From NCBI RefSeq assembly GCF_009660225.1, contig NZ_CP045920.1:1674001-1738000 (forward strand): a DNA stretch of 64,000 nucleotides, read 5' to 3'. The notes below the pieces were generated by a model. The model had not been told where the DNA came from, did no database searches, and saw only the letters and a program-made list of their open reading frames with translations. The position numbers were made by a program, and so were the translations under genes. Positions 3,271 through 23,783 of this stretch are shown piece by piece (the stretch's first letter is position 1; each line of letters opens with the position of its first letter). The DNA comes from Pseudactinotalea sp. HY158. Lineage in GTDB: Bacteria; Actinomycetota; Actinomycetes; Actinomycetales; Beutenbergiaceae.

Positions 3271-6676
<3,406 letters not shown>

Positions 6677-6680
<4 letters not shown>

Positions 6681-7612
6681 GCGCCGCGACCGACCGGCCG
6701 GGTGGCGGGCGGCCCGGTTTCGGGGTGCGGCTGGGCGCGGCGATGGCCGCGCGCGGTCCGCTGTGCGTGGGCGTCGATCCCCACCCGCAGCTCCTGGCCG
6801 CGTGGGGGCTGGCGGACGACGTCGCGGGCCTTCGGGAGTTCTCGCTGCGGGTCGTCGAGGCACTCGGCTCCCGGGTGGCCGCCATCAAGCCGCAGGTTGC
6901 GTTCTTCGAGCGGCACGGCAGCGCCGGGATGGCGGTGCTCGAGGAGGTCGTGGCCGCCTGCGCGGCCCTGGACCAGCTGACCATCCTCGATGCGAAGCGG
7001 GGCGACATCGGCTCGACCATGGCCGGCTACGCCCACGCCTATCTCCACCCGGACAGCCCGCTCGCGGGGGACGCCGTGACCCTCTCGCCATATCTGGGCT
7101 TCGGCTCCCTCGCGCCCGCGATCGAGCTCGCCCGGGAGCACGGGCGCGGGGTCTTCGTGCTCACCCTCACGTCCAATCCCGAGGGTGCCGAGGTCCAGCA
7201 CGCCCGGGGCGCGGACGGCGCGAGCGTCGCCGGGGCGATCGCCGCCGCGGCGGGGCGACTCAACGCCGGATCACTCGGATCACGCGAATTACCCGAATCA
7301 CTCGGATCGGGCGAATCGACCGGGGACCCGGCGGGCCGGCTCGGCGACGTCGGCCTCGTCGTCGGCGCCACGCTCGGCCCGGTCGCCGAGCGACTCGGGA
7401 TCGACCTGGCCGCGGTCGCCGGACCGCTCCTCGCCCCGGGACTCGGGGCGCAGGGCGCCACGGCCGCGGACCTGGCCGCGGCGTTCGGCCCCGCCCGCTC
7501 ACAGGTACTGGCCAACTCCTCCCGCGCGATCCTGGCCGCCGGCCCGGAGGCCGGCGCACTCCGGGCGGCCGCCGCCCGCACCACCGCCGAGCTGCGCGCG
7601 GCGCTGGCGTGA
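6677..7612 (+). CDS. pyrF: Orotidine 5'-phosphate decarboxylase
   Basis: This 311-residue enzyme makes UMP, the last step of the pathway. It is the longer, type 2 form of OMP decarboxylase found in actinobacteria, with the active-site Asp105-Ala-Lys107 and Asp110 in [24 protein letters not shown] near the N-terminus and NSSRAIL near the C-terminus are typical. A Gly/Ser/Glu-rich insertion at about residues 198-215 is encoded by six 9-base repeats and lies in a loop where the family normally has little. The GTG start overlaps the carB stop. pyrD and pyrE are not in this window. Confidence 0.95.
7268..7321 (+). repeat. Six-unit 9-base tandem repeat inside pyrF
   Basis: Six 9-base units resembling GGATCACTC (GGATCACTC, GGATCACGC, GAATTACCC, GAATCACTC, GGATCGGGC, GAATCGACC) encode [18 protein letters not shown]. 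The units have drifted, but the period is exact and in frame. Confidence 0.85.
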
Positions 7613-7748
7613 GGGGGACCGCCCGCCGGCCGGGTCGCCCGGGTCCCGGCCCCAGGCCGGCCGGGCGGACGCGGGGATCGGGCCGTGCTAGGTTCGCCTG
7701 CATGAGCGTCATCCTGAACACGCCCGCCGCGGCGGAACGAGGTGGTCC

Positions 7749-8060
7749 GTGGCACTGCCAGAACTGAGCCCCGAACAGCGCGCGGCCGCACTCGAGAAGG
7801 CCGCCGCCGCCCGCACCGCGCGGGCCGAGGTGAAGAATCGACTGAAGTACAGCGGGGGACGGATCTCCGAGGTCATCGAGCTCGCCGGGGAGAACGAGGC
7901 CGTGAGCCGACTGCGCGTGCTCGCGCTGCTCGAATCCCTGCCCGGAGTGGGCAAGGTCAAGGCACGGGCCATCATGGCCGAGGTGGGTATCGCCGAGTCT
8001 CGGCGCGTCCGCGGCCTCGGCCCGCATCAGATCGCCGAGCTGGTGGACCGGTTTGGCTGA
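7749..8060 (+). CDS. mihF: Actinobacterial integration host factor (mIHF)
   Basis: This 103-residue nucleoid protein has the actinobacterial mIHF signature: a basic N-terminal helix ([21 protein letters not shown]) and a helix-two-turn-helix region with [21 protein letters not shown]. It bends DNA and supports nucleoid structure and phage integration. It is unrelated in sequence to proteobacterial IHF. GTG is used as start. The gene lies directly upstream of gmk, overlapping it by 8 bases, the same order as in M. tuberculosis (mihF-gmk-rpoZ). Length and neighbourhood both support the call. Confidence 0.94.
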
Positions 8061-8619
8061 GTCCCACCGCAGCCGGCTCACCGTGCTCGCCGGGCCGACC
8101 GCCGTGGGCAAGGGCACGGTCTCCGCCGATCTGCGCGCCCGCTTCCCGCGCGTGTGGCTCTCGGTCTCGGCCACGACCCGCGCTCCTCGCCCCGGCGAGG
8201 TGGACGGCGTGCACTATCACTTCCTCACCCCGCAGCGCTTCGCCGAGCTCGTCGCCCAGGGGGAGTTCCTCGAGCACGCCATCGTCCACGGTCGCCACCA
8301 CTACGGCACGCTGCGCCGTCCCGTCGAGGACGTCCTCGGCCGGGGCGGCCTCGCGCTGCTCGAGATCGACCTCCAGGGGGCCCGGCAGGTGCGCCGCACG
8401 ATGCCCGATGCCCGCTTCGTCTTCCTCGCGCCACCGAGCTGGGAGGAACTCGAGCGCCGGCTCGTGGGTCGCGGCACCGAGGACGCCGAGGAGCGGTCCC
8501 GCCGCCTCGCCACGGCCACGATCGAGCTCGCGGCCGAGCCGGAGTTCGACCACACGATCGTCAACGACGAGGTCCACCGCGCGACCGACGAGCTCGTCAC
8601 CCTCATGGAGGGTGCCTGA
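8053..8619 (+). CDS. gmk: Guanylate kinase
   Basis: This 188-residue kinase phosphorylates GMP to GDP. The P-loop GPTAVGKG covers residues 14-21, followed by the GMP-binding region [17 protein letters not shown] and the lid segment. The usual P-loop of the family is GPSGVGKG, so Thr-Ala here is a mild variation. The start is a TTG inside the end of mihF; the 8-base overlap argues for coupled translation. An alternative later start is not obvious before the P-loop. rpoZ follows after a gap that contains a promoter-like element. Confidence 0.95.
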
Positions 8620-14769: not shown

Positions 14770-15741
14770 CGTCTGTTGTTCGCGGGCACCCCCGCCGTGG
14801 CCGTGCCGGCGCTGGGCGCGCTGCTGGAATCCGAACACGAGGTCGTCGCCGTCCTCACCCGCCCACCCGCGCCCGCGGGGCGGCGACGCACCCTGCGCCC
14901 GAGCCCCGTGCACGAGGCCGCAACGGCCGCGGGACTCGAGGTGATCACCGCGACCCGGCCGCACGAGGAGCCGGCGCTCACGCGGCTGCGGGAGCTGGAC
15001 CTCGACTGCGCCGCGGTCGTGGCCTACGGCGCCCTCCTGCGGGAGCCGGCGCTCAGTCTGCCCGTCCACGGCTGGATCAACCTGCACTTCTCCCTGTTGC
15101 CGGCGTGGCGGGGCGCCGCGCCCGTGCAGTACGCCGTCATGGCGGGCGACGAGATCTCCGGCGCCTCGACCTTCCGGATCGAGGCCGGCCTCGACACCGG
15201 GCCGGTCTTCGCCACGATGACCGAGCGGATCCGCCCCCGGGACACGGCCGGCGACCTGCTCGACCGGCTCGCCCACGCCGGACCCGCGCTCCTGCGGGCC
15301 ACCCTCGATGCCGTCGCGGCGGGCACGGCGGACCCGATCCCGCAGCCCGCCGAGGGGGTCTCCCTGGCCCCCACCCTGACGAGCGCGGACGGGCGGATCG
15401 ACTGGCGCCACCCCGCGGCGGCGATCGATCGCCGCATCCGCGGTCTCACCCCGGCGCCGGGCGCGTGGACCCGGGACGACCGGGGTCGCTACAAGCTCGG
15501 CCCGGTCGAACCGGTCGCTTCCGCGACGAGCGCGACGAATGCGACGACCGGCACGGGCAGCACGGCCGTCCCCTCCCTCGCGCCGGGGCGGGTCGGCATC
15601 GACGAATCCGGCGTCATCGTCGGCACCGGCTCCGTGCCCGTCCGGCTCACACGGATCGCGCCCCCCGGCAAGCCGTGGATGGCGGCGTCGGACTGGGCGC
15701 GCGGGGCACGACACGACATCGGATTCGAGGTGGATGAATGA
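14767..15741 (+). CDS. fmt: Methionyl-tRNA formyltransferase
   Basis: This 324-residue enzyme formylates initiator Met-tRNA. The N-terminal formyltransferase domain contains MRLLFAGTPAVAVPAL, the catalytic region INLHFSLLPAWRGAAPVQ and the aspartate in GLDTGP. The C-terminal OB-like domain (about 205-310) has a repeat-encoded insertion rich in Ala, Thr and Ser near residues 253-265. The start at 14767 fits the N-terminus of the family and the -10-like hexamer 7 bases upstream. The stop overlaps the rsmB ATG by four bases. Confidence 0.96.
   Translation: MRLLFAGTPAVAVPALGALLESEHEVVAVLTRPPAPAGRRRTLRPSPVHEAATAAGLEVITATRPHEEPALTRLRELDLDCAAVVAYGALLREPALSLPVHGWINLHFSLLPAWRGAAPVQYAVMAGDEISGASTFRIEAGLDTGPVFATMTERIRPRDTAGDLLDRLAHAGPALLRATLDAVAAGTADPIPQPAEGVSLAPTLTSADGRIDWRHPAAAIDRRIRGLTPAPGAWTRDDRGRYKLGPVEPVASATSATNATTGTGSTAVPSLAPGRVGIDESGVIVGTGSVPVRLTRIAPPGKPWMAASDWARGARHDIGFEVDE
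15523..15558 (+). repeat. Four-unit 9-base tandem repeat in fmt
   Basis: Units GCGACGAGC, GCGACGAAT, GCGACGACC and a decayed GGCACGGGC encode ATS-like triplets in a loop of the C-terminal domain. Confidence 0.8.
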
Positions 15742-17291
15742 GCCAGGGTGAGCACAGCGGCGACTTCCGGGACTCCCGCGCCGGCCGGCCGCCGCGCCGC
15801 CGTGGCGGCCGCGCCCCCGCGGCGACGCGGAGTGGGCAGCGGCCACGGGAGCGGAGCCGAACGGCCGACCCGGCGCGCCTGCTCGCCTACGAGGTGCTGC
15901 GCGCCGTTGCGGAGAGTGATTCCTACGCCAACCTCGTGCTGCCGCCGCTCATGCACCGGCGCGGGGTCTATGGGCGCGATGCGGCCTTCACGACCGAGTT
16001 GACCTACGGCACGCTGCGGCTGCACGGCCGCTACGATCCGATCATCGCGATCGCCGCGGACCGCGACATCCGCAAGCTGGACGACGACCTCCTCGATGTG
16101 CTCCGGCTCGGCTGTCATCAGCTCCTCGCGATGCGGGTGCCGTCCCACGCCGCGGTCTCCGAGACGGTCGCGCTGGCGCGGACCGTGCTCGGGGCCGGCC
16201 GAGCCCAACTGGTCAACGCGGTGCTGCGGCGGGTGAGCGAACGCGGGCTCGACGACTGGCTCACCGAGCTCGCGGACCGGTCCACCGGCGAGGACGAGCG
16301 GCTCGCGCGCCTCCACTCCCACCCGCAGTGGATCGTGCGGTCGCTGCGGCAGGCGCTCGACGGCACCGGGGAGGAACTGGTCGAGGCCCTCGAGGCGAAC
16401 AACAGCCCCGCCGAGGTCACCCTGGTGATCCGGCCCGGCCTCACCACGAAGACCGACCTGCCCGAGACCACCCGGGGACGGTACGCGCCGACCGCCCGGG
16501 TCCTGCGCGGGGGAGACCCGGGTGCCCTGAGCGTCGTACGCGAGGGGCTCGTCGGGGTCCAGGACGAGGGCTCCCAGCTCGTCACCCTGGCCCTCGCGAC
16601 CACGCCGATCGAGGGACCCGACCGGACCTGGCTCGACCTGTGCGCCGGCCCGGGGGGCAAGGCCGCGCTGCTCGCCTCCTGGCTCGGGGCACGCACGGGC
16701 GGCCCCGCCCCGTCCGATCCCGCGGACCACCCCCACGGGCAGGACCACCGCCCCCGGACCCGCCGCCTCGTCGCGAACGAGCTCTTCCACCATCGGGCCG
16801 ACCTGGTGCGCGCCTCACTGCGGGCCATCCCCGACTCGATCGACGTCGAGGTGCGCACGGGGGACGGGCGGATGGTCGGGGAGTACGAGCCGCAGACCTA
16901 CGACCGGGTGCTCGTCGACGCCCCCTGTACCGGCCTGGGCGCGCTGCGCCGCCGTCCGGAGGCGCGCTGGCGCCGCAGCACCGCCGATCTCGCCTCCCTG
17001 GCGGGGGTGCAGCGGGAGCTGGTCATCTCCGCGATCGAGGCGACCCGGATCGGCGGCGTCGTCGGCTACGTCACCTGTTCGCCGCATGTCGCCGAGACCA
17101 CCTTCGTGATCGCCGACGTGATCAAGCGGGCCGCCAAGCTCGGGATGCCGGTCGAGGTCGTGGACGCCGCCGCGGCACTCGCCCAGGTCGCCCTGACCCC
17201 GCTGCCCGATCAGCAGGGCCCGTACGTGCAGCTGTGGCCCCACCGGCACGGCACCGACGCGATGTTCCTGGCGATCCTGCGCAGGGTCTGA
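15738..17291 (+). CDS. rsmB: 16S rRNA (cytosine-5) methyltransferase RsmB, copy 1
   Basis: This 517-residue enzyme combines an N-terminal NusB-like RNA-binding domain (about 45-175) with a C-terminal SAM-dependent methyltransferase that modifies C967-type positions of 16S rRNA. The SAM motif [16 protein letters not shown] has the usual lysine at residue 308. The two cysteines of the catalytic mechanism are Cys397 in DAPCTGLG and Cys447 in [10 protein letters not shown]. The basic Arg/Gly-rich N-terminus is poorly conserved. Its ATG overlaps the fmt stop. A diverged paralogue follows 172 bases downstream. Confidence 0.95.
   Translation: MSQGEHSGDFRDSRAGRPPRRRGGRAPAATRSGQRPRERSRTADPARLLAYEVLRAVAESDSYANLVLPPLMHRRGVYGRDAAFTTELTYGTLRLHGRYDPIIAIAADRDIRKLDDDLLDVLRLGCHQLLAMRVPSHAAVSETVALARTVLGAGRAQLVNAVLRRVSERGLDDWLTELADRSTGEDERLARLHSHPQWIVRSLRQALDGTGEELVEALEANNSPAEVTLVIRPGLTTKTDLPETTRGRYAPTARVLRGGDPGALSVVREGLVGVQDEGSQLVTLALATTPIEGPDRTWLDLCAGPGGKAALLASWLGARTGGPAPSDPADHPHGQDHRPRTRRLVANELFHHRADLVRASLRAIPDSIDVEVRTGDGRMVGEYEPQTYDRVLVDAPCTGLGALRRRPEARWRRSTADLASLAGVQRELVISAIEATRIGGVVGYVTCSPHVAETTFVIADVIKRAAKLGMPVEVVDAAAALAQVALTPLPDQQGPYVQLWPHRHGTDAMFLAILRRV
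17208..17261 (+). repeat. 54-bp block identical to the end of rsmB copy 2 (18949-19002)
   Basis: These 54 bases in rsmB copy 1 are identical to 18949-19002 in copy 2, encoding [18 protein letters not shown]. The coding sequences on either side differ at many third positions. This points to strong constraint or recent gene conversion. Confidence 0.85.
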
Positions 17292-17463: not shown

Positions 17464-19032
17464 ATGTCAACACAGGAGTTCTCGAAGACCGGGGCCGTCG
17501 ACGTGACGGGTGTCCGCCGGGCGACCGGGGTGGCGTCCGCCGTGGGCCTCATTCGGTCCCGCCGGCGCGCCGCGGAGCATGCCTGGGCGGTCGATCCGGC
17601 CCGCACCACGGCGTATGCCGCGTTGCGGGCGGTCGTGCACGGCGAGTCGTTCACCGAGTGGGTGCTGCCGGCGCTCATGCGCCGTCACGGTGTGTACGGC
17701 GGAGACGCCGCCTGGACCACGGAGTTGACGTATGGGACCCTGCGGCTGCGGGGCCGGTACGACCGGATCATCGCGATCGCGGCCGCGGGGCGGCTCGGCG
17801 AACCCGATGACGAGGTGCTGGACGTGCTGCGCCTCGGCTGTCACCAGCTGCTGGCGATGCAGGTTCCTGCGGGCGCCGCCGTCTCGGAGACGGTGGCGTT
17901 GGCGCATGCGGAGCTCGGCCAGGTCCGGTCGCAGTCGGTCGCGGCGGTGTTGCGACGGGTGGCCGAGCGGGATCTGGACGCCTGGCTGGAGCGGATCGAG
18001 GCGGCTGCGGCCTCCGAGGACGAACGGTTGGGCCGGATCCACTCCCATCCGCAGTGGATCGTGCGAGCCTTCCGTCAGGGGCTCGGCGCGGCGACGGAGG
18101 AGCTGACCGCGCTGCTCGAGGCGAACAACGCGCCCGCGCCGATCACGCTCGCAGTGCGCCCCGGGCTCGTGGACCTGGTGGATCTGCCGCAGACGACCCG
18201 GGGCCGGTACGCCCCAACGGCACGGGTCCTTCAGGCCGGGGATCCCGGTGCGTTGACCATGGTCAAGGAGGGCCTGGTCGGCGTGCAGGACGAGGGCTCC
18301 CAGTTGCTCACGCTGGCGTTCGCGACGGCCCCGATCACGGGACCGGATCGGACCTGGCTCGACCTGTGCGCCGGCCCGGGAGGCACGGCGGCGCTGCTCG
18401 CGTCGTGGCTCGCGGCCCGCACCGGTAGCCCGCTTCACGAGGAGGTCCCCGAGCCGGGGGAGGCCGAGGCGGGCCATGGGCAGGACCGGCGCCGGCGCAC
18501 CCGCCGGCTCGTTGCGAATGAGCTGTTCCAGCAGCGCAGCGATCAGGTGCGCGCGGCTCTCAGGGCGATTCCGGGCTCGATCGACGTGACGGTGCGCACC
18601 GGGGACGGCCGGCTCGTCGGGGGGCACGAGCCCGCGGCCTACGATCGCGTGCTCGTCGACGCGCCGTGCACGGGCCTGGGCGCGCTGCGCCGACACCCCG
18701 AGGCCAAGTGGCGTCGCAGCACGGCGGACCTGGCGAGGTTGGCCGCACTTCAGCGGGAGCTGACACTGTCGGCGATCGCGGCCACGCGCGTGGGCGGGAT
18801 GATCGGCTACCTGACCTGTTCACCCCACGTGGCCGAGACGCGCTTCGTCGTGTCGGACGTGATCAAACGGGCCGCCGCGGCCGGTACGCCGGTCGCCGTC
18901 GTCGACGCGGTCGAGGTGCTCGACCGGGTCGCCGTGACCGAACTCGCGGATCAGCAGGGCCCGTACGTGCAGCTGTGGCCCCACCGGCACGGCACCGACG
19001 CGGTGTTCCTCGCCCTCCTGCGCCGCACCTGA
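17464..19032 (+). CDS. RsmB-like RNA methyltransferase, tandem paralogue (copy 2)
   Basis: This 522-residue protein is homologous to the upstream RsmB over its whole length, including the NusB-like domain and the methyltransferase core. Both catalytic cysteines are kept: Cys402 in DAPCTGLG and Cys452 in [10 protein letters not shown]. The lysine of the SAM-binding motif is replaced by threonine at residue 308 ([14 protein letters not shown]). The C-terminal 54 bases at 18949-19002 are identical to copy 1, although the rest has clearly diverged. GGTAGGTGG lies 4 bases before the ATG, and a TAGGCT hexamer at 17366-17371 may be its own promoter. It may have a different RNA target or reduced activity. 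Confidence 0.88.
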
Positions 19033-19048: not shown

Positions 19049-19804
19049 TCAGGGTTCCCCACCGACGCGCCCGGGCCCCGTCCGGCCTTCGACGATGCGC
19101 TCCGGCGGCAGTCGGCGTTCGGCGACCTCGCGCGCCACGTCGGTCAGCCGGTACCCGTTCCGGCGAGCGAAATCGCGGAGGGCCCGGAAGGCCTCGTCCA
19201 CGGTGGTCCGATCCCGCTCGGCGAGGACGCCCTTGGCCTGTTCGATGACGATGCGGCTGTGCAGCGCGTGCTCGAGCTGCGCGACCAGGACATCACGGCG
19301 GCCGCCGGCACGGGCGTGGACGATCCCGATGGTGGCCACGTCCGCGAGCGCTCGCGCGAGGCTCAGCGCTTCGATGGGCAGGTCGCCGGGGGTCGTGCCG
19401 AACAGGGTCACGGCGCCGATGACCTCGTCGCGCGATCGCAGCGGGATCGCGTGCACCGCCGCGTATCCCTGCTCGAGCGCCAGCCTCGCGAACCGCGGCC
19501 AGCGGCTCGTCGCCTCGTTCAGATCCGCGACCCGCACCATCTCGCCGGTCCGGTGGCAATCGCGGCAGGGGCCCTCGCCGGCCTGCGCCTGGTACAACTC
19601 CACCAGTCCCGCCCGCTCATCGGAGGACGCCATCACCTGCAACGAACCGTGCTGGTCCGGCAGCAGCAGCGCGGCCTCGGCGACGTCGACCAGCAGCACG
19701 ATCTTCGCCACGAGGAGGTCGAGGAGGTCGGCGACGTCATAGTCGCCGACCAGCAGGTCGGCGAGCTCGCTCACCGCACCGGCCAACGTCCGTTCTCTCA
19801 TCAT
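19049..19804 (-). CDS. GAF-ANTAR RNA-binding regulator
   Basis: The protein has an N-terminal GAF domain (about residues 15-165) and a C-terminal ANTAR domain (about 175-235) with the RNA-binding helices [31 protein letters not shown] proteins bind paired hairpins in mRNA leaders and prevent termination. I place the start at the ATG of 19804 because GGAGGAGG lies 8 bases upstream; a GTG at 19843 would add 13 residues. No cognate kinase lies alongside, so the GAF domain itself may sense a ligand or redox state; it includes a GPCRDC cysteine pair. It is convergent with rsmB copy 2 and divergent from rpe. Confidence 0.85.
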
Positions 19805-19932
19805 TCCCGCGGCCTCCTCCCCGTCGACGCCGAGCCGGCTCACCGGTCGCCTCAGCGGGCGCGGTCGATCTGGGCGACGAGCCTATCGCTCGCCCGCGCC
19901 GCCGGCTCGGCCCCCGGCCTGGCGGGCCCGGC

Positions 19933-19948
19933 TACTGTGGGTCCGGTG
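19933..19948 (+). promoter_or_regulatory. Likely leaderless rpe promoter
   Basis: TACTGT at 19933-19938 is followed by 7 bases and then the GTG of rpe at 19946. No ribosome-binding site is present. Confidence 0.45.
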
Positions 19949-20617
19949 ACGATCCGAATCTCTCCGAGCGTGCTCAACTCCGACCTCGCCGACCTGGCCG
20001 GGGAGGTGGCCCGCATCGGCAACGCCGACTTCGTCCATCTCGACGTGATGGACAGCCACTTCGTGCCGAACCTCACGTTCGGGCTGCCCGTGGTGGAACG
20101 CCTGCTTCAGCGGATCACGCTGCCGGCGGACGTGCACCTGATGATCGCCGATCCCGACACCTGGGCACCCGAGTACGCGCGGGCGGGTGCGGCCTCGGTC
20201 ACATTCCACGCCGAGGCCTCGGCCGCGCCCGTGCGCCTCGCCCGGGAGCTGCGGGCCGCCGGCGCCCGGGCCGGCATCGCGCTCAAACCCGCCACCGACA
20301 TCGCCGCCTACGTCGACCTGCTGCCGGAGTTCGACATGGTGCTGCTCATGACCGTCGAACCCGGCTTCGGCGGCCAGTCCTTCATCGAGGGCACGCTCGG
20401 CAAGATCGCCCGCACCCGGGCGGCGGTGGACGCGACGGGCCGCGACATCTGGGTCCAGGTCGACGGCGGCGTCTCCCGCGCGACCATCGGCGCCGCCGCC
20501 CGCGCCGGCGCGGACATGTTCGTGGCCGGCTCCGCGGTGTATTCGGCCGCCGACCCGAACGCCGAGATCGAGGCCCTGCGCCGGCTGGCGCAGGCAGAGC
20601 GCACCCCCGCGGCCTGA
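19946..20617 (+). CDS. rpe: Ribulose-phosphate 3-epimerase
   Basis: This 223-residue TIM-barrel enzyme interconverts ribulose 5-phosphate and xylulose 5-phosphate in the pentose phosphate pathway. The metal and substrate motifs are complete: [33 protein letters not shown] and WVQVDGGVS. The start at GTG 19946 gives the family N-terminus [17 protein letters not shown]-like. Ribulose 5-phosphate is also a riboflavin precursor, and rpe sits next to riboflavin genes in many actinobacteria; here an FMN riboswitch follows instead of biosynthesis genes. Confidence 0.95.
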
Positions 20618-20636
20618 CCCGGCGGGCACGAGGCGA

Positions 20637-20642
20637 TATACT
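20637..20642 (+). promoter_or_regulatory. Promoter -10 element before the FMN riboswitch
   Basis: TATACT is a near-consensus -10 hexamer, rare in this GC-rich sequence, located 15 bases before the riboswitch P1 stem. Confidence 0.55.
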
Positions 20643-20657
20643 CGGCCCCGAGTTTGA

Positions 20658-20790
20658 CGTGCTCCGGGGTCGGTGAAATTCCGAGCCGGCGGTGACAGTC
20701 CGCGACCCGCGCGCCCAGCATCATCGGGCGAACGGTTGACCTGGTGGAATTCCGGGACCGACGGTGAGAGTCCGGATGGGAGGAAGCACG
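20658..20790 (+). ncRNA. FMN riboswitch (RFN element)
   Basis: The conserved RFN core is easy to read: GGGGTCGGTGAAATTCCGA, CCGGCGGTGACAGTCCGCGA, the variable arm, then GGTGGAATTCCGGGACCGAC and GGTGAGAGTCCGGATGGGAG. The P1 stem pairs CGTGCT (20658-20663) with AGCACG (20785-20790). It should bind FMN and repress the genes downstream when FMN is plentiful. It lies 84 bases before the permease ATG. Three further hairpins follow and probably form the expression platform. The match to the family consensus is strong. Confidence 0.96.
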
Positions 20791-20791
20791 C

Positions 20792-20867
20792 GGCGCATCC
20801 GACATGCGCCGTCTCCAGGCGAACGCGCGTGGCGTCGCCTGCCCCGGACGATACGTCCGGGAAGGTG
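20792..20867 (+). promoter_or_regulatory. Probable riboswitch expression platform with hairpin beside the ribosome-binding site
   Basis: Three hairpins are visible: GGCGCAT/ATGCGCC (20792-20810), AGGCGA/TCGCCT (20817-20840) and CCGGACG/CGTCCGG (20844-20860). The last one directly abuts the ribosome-binding site GGAAGGTGG (20859-20867) of the permease gene. There is no T-run, so control of translation initiation seems more likely than termination. Confidence 0.5.
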
Positions 20868-20873
20868 GACGCG

Positions 20874-21608
20874 ATGCTCACCCGCCGGCTGGTCGCGCCC
20901 CTGGTGTTGGGCGCCGTCGGCGTGCTGCTGTGGTCGCTCCTCGCGCCGGTCGCCGGCCCGCAGGTGCTGCCGGGCCCCGGTGCGGTGGTCTCCCGTCTCT
21001 GGCTGGAGCTGACCGCAGGGGGCCTCCTCGGCCACGCCGTCGTCACCCTGGGCGTGAGCGTCCTGGGCTGCGTCTTCGGTGTCGCCATCGCGTTTCCGCT
21101 GGGCTATCTCATCGCCCACATCCCGGTCGTCTCGGCCGCCATCGGGCCCTATCTGGCCGCATCCCAGGCGATCCCCGCGGTGGCCCTCGCGCCGCTGCTG
21201 GTCGTCTGGGTCGGCTACGGCGCCCTGCCCACAGCCCTGCTGTGCACCCTCATGGTGTTCTTCCCGATCACCATCAACACGGTGCTCGGCTTCACCCGGC
21301 TCGATCCCGACATCATCGGCGCCGCCCGCGTCGACGGCGCCGGCCAGGTCATGCTGCTCACCTGGATCGAGTTCCCCCTCGCGCTTCCGGCGATCCTCGC
21401 CGGGGTCCGCAACGGGTTCGTGCTCTCGGTCACCGGAGCGGTGGTCGGGGAGTTCGTCATGGGTGGCCAGGGGCTCGGGCAGCTGCTGGCGGTGTACCGC
21501 GATCGCGGTGACACCGCCGGCCTCATGGCGGTCCTCGGCGCGCTCGTGCTCGCGGCCATCGCCCTGTTCGGGCTGGTGCGCCTACTGGAGAGGAAGCTGG
21601 AATGGTAA
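20874..21608 (+). CDS. ribX: Riboflavin ABC transporter permease, RibX-like
   Basis: This 244-residue inner-membrane protein belongs to the BPD permease family close to ThiX, SsuC and RibX. It has about six hydrophobic helices and the EAA-loop signature (AARVDGAGQVMLLTWIEFPLALP split across residues 130-152) that contacts the ATPase. The upstream FMN riboswitch identifies riboflavin or a precursor as the cargo, as known for RibXY of Chloroflexi. The ATG at 20874 has GGAAGGTGG 6 bases upstream. It overlaps the lipoprotein gene by 7 bases. No ATP-binding subunit gene lies nearby, so one must be shared from elsewhere. Confidence 0.82.
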   Translation: MLTRRLVAPLVLGAVGVLLWSLLAPVAGPQVLPGPGAVVSRLWLELTAGGLLGHAVVTLGVSVLGCVFGVAIAFPLGYLIAHIPVVSAAIGPYLAASQAIPAVALAPLLVVWVGYGALPTALLCTLMVFFPITINTVLGFTRLDPDIIGAARVDGAGQVMLLTWIEFPLALPAILAGVRNGFVLSVTGAVVGEFVMGGQGLGQLLAVYRDRGDTAGLMAVLGALVLAAIALFGLVRLLERKLEW

Positions 21609-22657
21609 CGATCCGCCGTTCGATCGTGGGGACGACGCTGCTCACCCTGGGAGCGCTCGCGCTCGCCGCCTGTGGTGCGGGAGGTGGGGGAGCGGCCGAT
21701 GGCGCCTCGGGTGCCGGCTCCCCGCCGGGGCAGGGGGGAGGGGGAGCGGACACGCCGGTGACGATCGGACTCACGTACGTGCCGAACATCCAGTTCGCGC
21801 CGTGGTACGTCGCCGAGGAGGCCGGCTACTTCACCGACGCCGGGGTCGAGGTCACCCTGCGTCATCACGGCCAGGACGAGGATCTCTTCGGGGCCCTCGC
21901 CGCGGGGGTCGAGCAGGTCGTCGTCTCCGCCGGCGACGAGATCCTGCAGGCCCGTTCCCAGGGCGTCGACGTGGTCGACTTCGCCACCGTCTACCAGGAC
22001 TACCCCGTGCGCCTCGTCGTCCCGGCGGACTCGCCGATCCACACGCTGGCCGACCTGCGGGGCGCGAGCATCGGGATCCCCGGTCGCTACGGGCAGAGCT
22101 GGTTCGGGCTGCTCGCCGCCCTCGAACAGGCCGGGCTGACCGAGCACGATGTGACGATCGCGGAGATCGGCTTCACCCAGCAGACCGCCCTGAGCGCCGG
22201 CCGGGTCGATGCCGTGGTCGGATTCGTCAACAACGACGTGCCCAAGTTCCGTTCCGCGGGGCTGGCCGTGCGGGTCCTCGACCAGGATCCCGTGCCGCTC
22301 GTGGGGGTGGGGATGGGCGCGGCCGGCGCGATGATCGACTCCGAGCCGGCCGCCCTCGCCGGAATCCTCACGGCGGTGCACCGGGCCGTCCAGGACATCG
22401 TCGCCGATCCCCAGGTGGCGATCGACGCGGCCCGGGAGCACATCCCCGGCACGATCACCCCGGACCAGGAGGAGGCGATGCGGCGGAGCATCGAGGCGAC
22501 GATCCCGCTCTACGGGGACGTCGACGCGGCGGCCTGGGGCACGCCCGAGGTCGGGCGCTGGCAGGGGATGGCCGACTTCATGTCCGCCCAGGGGCTGCTC
22601 GAGGGCGCCGTCTCGCCCGGTGAGGCCGTGACCGACGAGATCGCCGCGAACCAGTAG
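21602..22657 (+). CDS. ribY: Riboflavin-binding lipoprotein, RibY-like (NMT1/THI5 family)
   Basis: This 351-residue substrate-binding protein starts with a lipoprotein signal peptide ending at the lipobox LAAC (Cys24), then a Gly/Ala-rich spacer to about residue 50. The mature domain has the NMT1/THI5-like features: [21 protein letters not shown] and [10 protein letters not shown]. Known relatives bind thiamine pyrimidines, sulfonates or riboflavin; the riboswitch upstream favours riboflavin. Its ATG lies inside the end of the permease gene. It is followed 11 bases later by hisE, which has its own promoter-like hexamer. Confidence 0.82.
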
Positions 22658-22668
22658 GCTGGGCCGTC

Positions 22669-22932
22669 GTGAAGACCTTCGAGGAACTGTTCGCAGAGCT
22701 GACACACAAGGCACGCACCCGACCCGAGGGCTCGGGCACGGTGGCACAGCTGGACGCCGGGGTGCACGGCATCGGCAAGAAGATCGTCGAGGAGGCGGCC
22801 GAGGTGTGGATGGCCGCCGAATACGAGACCGATGACGACACGGCCCTGGAGGTCTCGCAGCTGCTCTACCACCTCCAGGTGCTCATGGTGGCCAAGGGCC
22901 TCACTCTCGACGACGTCTACAAGCACCTTTAG
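22669..22932 (+). CDS. hisE: Phosphoribosyl-ATP pyrophosphatase
   Basis: This 87-residue all-alpha MazG-like enzyme performs the second step of histidine synthesis, hydrolysing phosphoribosyl-ATP to phosphoribosyl-AMP. The metal-binding motif [13 protein letters not shown] and the later [13 protein letters not shown] are intact. The GTG start is preceded by TAGGCT (22655-22660) at 8 bases and lacks a strong Shine-Dalgarno, so it may be leaderless. hisG follows after 8 bases, the normal hisE-hisG pairing in actinobacteria. Confidence 0.95.
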
Positions 22933-22940
22933 AGGAACGA

Positions 22941-23783
22941 ATGTTGCGGATCGCTGTACCGAATAAGGGCGCCCTCGCCGGCCCCACCTCCGACCTGCTC
23001 CGGGAGGCGGGCTACCGCCAGCGCGGCGAGGGCCGGGAGCTCGTGCTCATCGACCCGGAGAACGAGGTCGAGTTCTTCTACCTGCGCCCGCGCGACATCG
23101 CGGTGTACGTCGGCGCCGGCACGGTCGACGCCGGGATCACCGGCCGCGACCTCATGCTCGACTCCGGGGTCGAGGCGGTCGAGCATCGCCGCCTCGGCTT
23201 CGCGCGCTCCACGTTCCGGTTCGCCGCACCGGTGGGGACGATGGCCTCGCTCGGCGACATCCGGGGCAAGCGCGTGGCCACCTCCTATGCGGGGGTCGTG
23301 CGCGACTACCTGCGCGACCACGACGTCGAGGCCACGGTCGTGCGGCTCGACGGCGCGATCGAGTCGACCGTGCACCTGGGCGTGGCCGACCTCGTGGCCG
23401 ACGTGGTCGAGACCGGTGCGACCCTGCGGGCCGCCGGACTCGAGGTCTTCGGGGAGAAGATCCTCGAGTCCGAGGCCGTGCTCATCCGACCCACCGGCGA
23501 GCCGCGGGCGGGCATGGAGATCCTCGACCGGCGCATCAAGTCCGTCCAGGTCGCCCGGCAGTACGTGATGATGGACTACGACGTGCCCGAGGACCTCGTC
23601 GACGTGGCGGTCTCGATCACGCCGGGGCTCGAATCGCCCACCGTCTCCCCGCTCCATTCCGATGGCTGGATGGCCGTGCGGGCGATGGTCGACGCGGAGC
23701 AGGCGCACCGGACCATGGACCGGCTCTACGACCTGGGTGCCCGGGCGATCCTGGTCACCTCGATCGAAGCCTGTCGCCTCTGA
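22941..23783 (+). CDS. hisG: ATP phosphoribosyltransferase, long form
   Basis: This 280-residue enzyme starts histidine synthesis by joining ATP and PRPP. It is the long form with a C-terminal ACT-like regulatory domain (about 210-280), which normally confers histidine feedback inhibition and makes HisZ unnecessary. Motifs include LRIAVPNKGAL, VDAGITGRDL and the PRPP-site region DLVADVVETGATLRAAGL. RBS AGAGGAACG lies just before the ATG. It is co-transcribed with hisE. Confidence 0.95.
   Translation: MLRIAVPNKGALAGPTSDLLREAGYRQRGEGRELVLIDPENEVEFFYLRPRDIAVYVGAGTVDAGITGRDLMLDSGVEAVEHRRLGFARSTFRFAAPVGTMASLGDIRGKRVATSYAGVVRDYLRDHDVEATVVRLDGAIESTVHLGVADLVADVVETGATLRAAGLEVFGEKILESEAVLIRPTGEPRAGMEILDRRIKSVQVARQYVMMDYDVPEDLVDVAVSITPGLESPTVSPLHSDGWMAVRAMVDAEQAHRTMDRLYDLGARAILVTSIEACRL

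Follow-up and report, generated by a model that had tools for sequence, protein, structure and literature searches.

The locus between rpe and hisE in the actinomycete Pseudactinotalea sp. HY158 raises a twofold question: what do transport genes do behind an FMN riboswitch at a place where riboflavin biosynthesis genes might be expected, and how does this bacterium obtain its riboflavin? A preliminary description had read the locus as RibXY-like uptake that took the place of synthesis. We analyzed it within a window of 64,000 nucleotides (the whole stretch of DNA under study, contig NZ_CP045920.1), together with the complete source genome and its relatives. The reading which we favor, at a probability of roughly 0.8, is that of an FMN-switched RibXY riboflavin importer which borrows its ATPase and serves a cell that has no riboflavin synthesis and has kept ribF. 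The features of the locus are collected in Table 1.

Table 1. Features of the rpe-hisG locus (positions are those of the window)
Feature	Position	Strand	Basis
rpe, ribulose-phosphate 3-epimerase, left border of the slot	19946-20617	+	TIGR01163, 246.7 bits (cut-off 212.6); PF00834
Promoter-like pair CTGACC-17-TATACT, just 5' of the aptamer	20614-20642	+	Consensus match only
FMN riboswitch aptamer	20656-20792	+	RF00050, 86.8 bits, E 2.1e-18, model 1-138 of 138
Hairpin CCCGGAC-GATAC-GTCCGGG, candidate sequestor; 3' arm enters the ribX ribosome-binding site	20843-20861	+	Sequence reading
GGGAAGGTGG, likely ribX ribosome-binding site	20859-20868	+	Sequence; 5 bases before the ATG at 20874
ribX, COG0600-type ABC permease, 244 aa	20874-21608	+	PF00528, 89.2 bits
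ribY, NMT1/THI5-fold substrate-binding lipoprotein, 351 aa	21602-22657	+	PF09084
hisE, right border of the slot	22669-22932	+	PF01503
hisG	22941-23783	+	TIGR00070, 172.9 bits (cut-off 75.75)

ribX and ribY are alone in the slot, which, as had been claimed, holds nothing but transport genes. The arrangement is tight: the reading frames of ribX and ribY overlap, 11 bases separate ribY from hisE and 8 bases hisE from hisG, and the series rpe-FMN riboswitch-ribX-ribY-hisE-hisG has no space for an ATPase gene. The likely start of ribX, judged from the sequence, is the ATG located 5 bases 3' of AAGGTGG; a listed open reading frame with a start at 20673 begins within the aptamer. The promoter-like pair was observed once, whereas shuffling of the region gave 0.1 on average. 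On the other side of rpe, the window carries two tandem rsmB-type genes (15738-17291 and 17464-19032, about 70% identical to each other), compared to a single copy in the other family loci examined. Between the second of them and rpe lies a gene encoding a GAF-ANTAR protein (19049-19843, minus strand), for which the other slot loci examined showed no counterpart.

The FMN riboswitch, which the preliminary description had placed at 20658-20790, was confirmed by a covariance-model search. The match covers the full consensus model, lies above the curated cut-off (86.8 vs. 66.2 bits for the gathering threshold) and is the sole one at that threshold in a cmscan of the entire window, in which the TPP riboswitch (RF00059) gave no match. 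The genome as a whole contains no other FMN match. As for the way in which this RNA may act, no terminator-like site was found in 20560-22960 and hisE-hisG begin 11 bases downstream of ribY, which together fit translational control; if exerted at the ribosome-binding site, such control would spare hisE-hisG.

The hairpin at the ribX ribosome-binding site is a plausible candidate for the sequestor, and pairing calculations lend it modest support. These were performed for 22 leaders, i.e. those of 21 of the 24 family genomes and of G025 (G001, G015, G019 and G057 were left out). Pairing of the ribosome-binding site reached a mean of 0.63, compared to 0.54 with shuffled upstream sequence (Wilcoxon p 0.0017, the leaders of kin not being independent of one another); three of the 22 leaders fell below their own control, and only three were at or under 5%. 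For the leader of the window the value was 0.84 vs. 0.65, with 7% of the shuffles equally high. A local hairpin arm was present in or adjoining the ribosome-binding site in all 22 folded leaders, a count made without a control. The whole-leader fold was no better than that of shuffles (z -0.99), and in the window the tail-platform pairing of the aptamer was no better than chance, 28 of 100 shuffles being as low.

The identity of the two proteins is best seen from their relatives. Over 183 aa, RibX shares 57% identity with a Streptomyces camelliae protein whose annotation reads riboflavin ABC transporter permease RibX, and RibY is 46% identical over 298 aa to the RibY of the rosB cluster of the same species, while RibY and another NMT1 paralogue from its own genome share 29% identity only. 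Thus, a permease and an NMT1-type binding protein stand together behind an FMN riboswitch and, via the S. camelliae pair, are clearly related to a pair with a published transport function. According to the accessible text of PMC11039241, the S. camelliae RibY (WP_270086808.1) is 70.87% identical to that of S. davaonensis, and ribXY of roseoflavin-making Streptomyces was termed a riboflavin import system in 2024. The assignment of the pair to RibXY, made in the preliminary description, is upheld by these identities. It should be added that relatedness was judged here against S. camelliae instead of by the threshold given in the accessible part of PMC4418817, namely more than 38% identity with 80% coverage to the RibY of C. 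aurantiacus. A tblastn search of 72,556 plasmid records with RibY returned one record, S. camelliae NZ_CP115301.1 (45.8% identity); a search of genome contigs for a named relative gave one weak match, from another phylum, at 26% identity; and no NCBIfam equivalog scored above its cut-off for either RibX or RibY.

RibY bears a lipobox-like LAAC whose Cys24 is nearly invariant in an alignment of 21 rows, in which RHHG (R87-G90) and other residues are invariant. The best solved match of its AlphaFold2 model (pLDDT 88.9) is 3ix1 (Z 32.2, rmsd 3.5, 295 aligned residues, 23% identity), and the closest solved proteins, 3ix1 and 4nmy, bind thiamine precursors or thiamin. With a fold and nearest solved relatives of the ThiY/THI5 and thiamin-binding kind, one could argue that the substrate of the pair is a thiamine precursor or some other small molecule and not riboflavin. 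We consider this highly improbable, as an FMN match is located 5' of ribX in 23 of the 24 family genomes, the relatives sharing 46-57% identity are a pair from a flavin-antibiotic cluster, and histidines H88/H89 of RHHG are retained in S. camelliae and absent from ThiY (3ix1) and from two paralogues of the same genome. RibY thus has a fold of the thiamine-precursor binding type, with close kinship and the mode of control pointing to riboflavin as its ligand.

Having no ATPase of its own, RibXY would borrow that of another ABC system; in Chloroflexi, too, the ATPase is outside the ribXY operon (PMC3766115, accessible text). A profile search with TIGR01184 in the source genome, G005, G009, G011 and G012, with a blastp comparison of the first ten matches of the source genome and 16 from the other four, revealed no universal orphan ATPase. 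The three best COG1116-type ATPases of the source genome each adjoin another transport gene set, and the single one found in G009 at E <= 1e-44 lies beside a permease-like frame of its own. A search for TPP or other riboswitches beside other ABC systems gave no match in 13 loci.

Where, then, does the riboflavin come from? The source genome is a single contig of 3,652,490 bases, 99.33% complete. Searching all of it for the biosynthetic genes, a check proposed in the preliminary description, gave no match to ribH (PF00885), ribB (PF00926), ribE (PF00677) or ribA (PF00925), and for ribD (TIGR00326) only two matches far below the cut-off (38.4 and 30.3 bits vs. 156.35), which cover different halves, as would be expected of other deaminases and reductases. 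In 14 genomes serving as positive controls, ribH, ribB and ribD were detected in all 14, ribE in 11 and ribA in 10. The ribF gene is retained in the source genome (PF06574, 149 bits). What this gene content best predicts is a riboflavin auxotroph supplied by RibXY, though an alternative route of a novel type would escape family searches. A cell lacking the pathway would also lack 5-amino-6-ribitylaminouracil made by way of RibA and RibD and would be unable to form the F420 deazaflavin by the usual route (the pathway link is taken from the accessible text of PMC12855090).

The mechanism that we propose is as follows. RibX, as the permease, and RibY, as a flavin-binding lipoprotein, would make up an ABC riboflavin importer of the RibXY type, powered by the borrowed ATPase. 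The leader RNA would sense FMN: when FMN is plentiful, the aptamer would close, the ribX ribosome-binding site would become hidden in the hairpin and less importer would be made, with ribY, which overlaps ribX, following it by translational coupling. The cell would live on imported riboflavin, which a RibF-type kinase/FAD synthase would convert to FMN and FAD.

The same arrangement is found throughout the family. In all 24 family genomes the best ribY match is at the rpe-hisE locus, and 23 of the gene maps show rpe and then ribX-ribY-hisE-hisG; that of G001 reads ribY-hisE-hisG, its contig starting inside ribY. The gap between rpe and the riboswitch carries 1 to 4 kb of other sequence in some of these genomes. 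The main groups of the family come out alike in the RibXY tree and the marker tree (inside a seven-member rib-less clade the order differs, with weak support), so that ribXY is likely old and vertically inherited in this family. In one genome, G017, which has no ribH, ribB or ribE, ribY is in two pieces in different frames (L026, about 5851-6710), due to either a frameshift or a sequence error.

The capacity for synthesis is not uniform within the family, since ribH and ribB are both present in 14 genomes and both absent in ten. Each of the ten has one FMN match, before ribXY, while 13 of the 14 have two, before ribXY and before the rib operon; in G001 only the latter is present. In the 14 ribH-positive members the rib operon is at another locus and has its own FMN riboswitch; none of rpe, hisE and hisG occurs in the 14 rib-operon loci examined. 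Co-occurrence of ribXY in the slot with a rib operon elsewhere in 14 of 24 genomes implies that loss of synthesis and the presence of ribXY in the slot are separate events.

We surveyed the contents of the slot in 59 relatives from the order, source genome included, and could assign a state in 52 of them (the remaining seven are G026, G035, G040, G041, G052, G053 and G056). Besides the 24 family genomes, ribXY occupies the slot in G025 and G057, which makes 26 of 59; G057 was seen from the rpe side only, with no hisE or hisG within the 15 kb read. Rib genes are in the slot of ten (G027, G028, G032, G036, G037, G039, G044, G045, G046 and G050), nine of them with both rpe and hisE seen and G036 with the hisE side only. 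Seven have ribM alone (G029, G034, G038, G047, G048, G051 and G054), preceded by an FMN match in four; ribM here means PF04973 of the PnuX/RibM type, assigned by profile in four and by similarity in the rest. In a further seven the slot is empty (G024, G033, G042, G043, G049, G055 and G058), and in two it holds other genes (G030 and G031). ribM is also found among the slot's rib genes, between ribE and ribBA in G027, G039 and G045, and before ribD in G028.

Two side observations belong here. In the draft genome G033 (L062, contig C42), rpe and hisE are adjacent and an FMN-ribXY unit lies a few kb from hisG; its ribH match has an internal TAG, and ribB and ribE were not found in this draft. In three ribH-less genomes of family f4 (loci L053, L054 and L057) the FMN riboswitch precedes an ECF-RibU-type gene, a third importer in the order, called by Pfam for the L054 protein and by similarity for L053 and L057.

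The rib genes in the slot of ten relatives, with an FMN match in front of them where the rpe-side sequence and the match were both seen, speak for the idea that ribXY captured the riboswitch from a rib operon formerly located in the slot and, by replacing it, turned the organism into an auxotroph. We nevertheless regard this as unlikely. In the 14 ribH-positive members, too, ribXY occupies the slot, and the rib operon is elsewhere, which makes ribXY in the slot separable from lost synthesis and rules out in-situ replacement as the direct cause of auxotrophy. Of the replacement of synthesis by uptake proposed in the preliminary description, the absence of the pathway therefore stands, and the exchange of rib genes for ribXY as the cause of auxotrophy does not. 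The closest case to such a replacement that we have seen is G054, though with ribM: it has FMN-ribM in the slot and no ribH, ribB or ribE, while its family mate G037 has rib genes there. An older exchange of rib genes for ribXY, in the family ancestor, is plausible and fits the pattern across the order.

How the source genome came to have ribXY without synthesis can be approached through the rib operons of its family. Comparison of their flanks (six-frame frames of at least 110 aa) showed flanking gene families in common within genus g6 and in two g3 pairs (G002/G018 and G010/G014), two further ones being shared by G002 and G014; around the operons of G007, G016 and G001, none of the flanking gene families recurs in another set. 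The operon of G007 lies between an aldo/keto reductase gene and ettA; in the congeneric G012 and G016, these two genes are separated by 645 and 931 bp, respectively, with no rib genes. In G000, a thioesterase gene is 142 bp from ettA; these two are direct neighbors in 14 of the 24 family genomes, and their spacing is 3.8 to 5.7 kb in the seven-member rib-less clade. Turnover of the position of the rib operon within the family is thus clear, and horizontal regain of the operon is possible.

A single clade for all 14 family operons was rejected by the AU test (p-AU 2.55e-05), a result that depends on G001, a draft of 580 contigs (89% complete, 4% contamination) whose rib operon could be on a stray contig. 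A common origin of the G007 and G016 operons was not rejected (p-AU 0.116), despite branches longer than in the marker tree. Changes in ribH counted by hand on the marker tree number about 3-4 whether the ancestor had the pathway or not.

One history compatible with this is that the ancestor of the family was a prototroph whose rib operon lay outside the slot, and that the source genome and others lost this operon, leaving ribXY as their sole source. We would give it slightly less than even odds. Without G001, a single origin of the remaining 13 operons was not rejected on a quick tree (p-AU 0.149), and a ribE-type gene alone persists in three of the ten genomes with no ribH or ribB (G006, G012 and G023, the last a 92% complete draft in which the absence of these two genes may be a gap). 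Against it, family rib operons sit at unrelated places, and no rib genes occupy the G007 operon site in the congeners of G007 or in G000. The solitary ribE genes found in G006 and G012, too, lie at places that differ from each other and from those in G020, G022 and G023, and they scatter in the RibE tree. These lone genes are of a two-domain type (L071 of G006, 7525-8094; L072 of G012, 6965-7543). The other history, put forward only tentatively and with the odds against it, is that the slot serves flavin supply and has repeatedly changed its cargo: an ancestral swap of ribDEBAH for ribXY would have led to auxotrophy, from which the source genome never recovered, while other genera regained rib operons with FMN riboswitches elsewhere. 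Should synthesis have been regained repeatedly, this would run contrary to the usual one-way picture of vitamin auxotrophy.

Whichever history applies, an FMN-switched RibXY importer ties a known transport system to a concrete and testable vitamin dependence in a bacterial family, and across the order one chromosomal slot serves now the synthesis, now the import of a vitamin, with an RNA switch of the same type in control. The rpe-ribXY-hisE slot was not found described in the literature searched, a coverage outside of which most subscription journals lie. The parts and the general idea are already known; fixation of ribXY in the slot throughout the family, and exchange of the slot's contents across the order, were not met in that literature. 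An actinobacterial RibXY, which the preliminary description had held to be new, is not: Table 2 in the accessible text of PMC4418817 listed, in 2015, FMN-riboswitch ribXY both for Actinobacteria that have the biosynthetic pathway and for others that lack it, that is, the same parts, the same phylum and both metabolic backgrounds as here.

The locus can be set beside three known systems. Like RibXY of the Chloroflexi Chloroflexus aurantiacus and Roseiflexus castenholzii, it has a permease and an NMT1-type protein behind an FMN riboswitch and no ATPase in the operon, and the C. aurantiacus pair rescued an E. coli riboflavin auxotroph (accessible text of PMC4418817); the phylum and the locus are different, and the likeness drawn here is one of parts. 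The rosB-cluster RibXY of Streptomyces is the pair closer in sequence, as the identities to S. camelliae given above indicate. There, unlike here, the genes are part of an antibiotic cluster, with ribX and the binding protein gene between those for riboflavin synthase and rosB and with ribA nearby, and no FMN riboswitch match was found in the 12.9 kb read. This cluster is carried by a 273 kb linear plasmid (L148, NZ_CP115301.1, 4253-7748). Finally, the freshwater actinobacterium acI strain A4, according to the accessible text of PMC5301498, likewise has no rib operon and has its sole FMN riboswitch before a transporter gene, the rib operon having been exchanged for an FMN-controlled PnuX; its transporter is the PnuC-like PnuX/RibM, whereas that of Pseudactinotalea sp. 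HY158 is RibXY.
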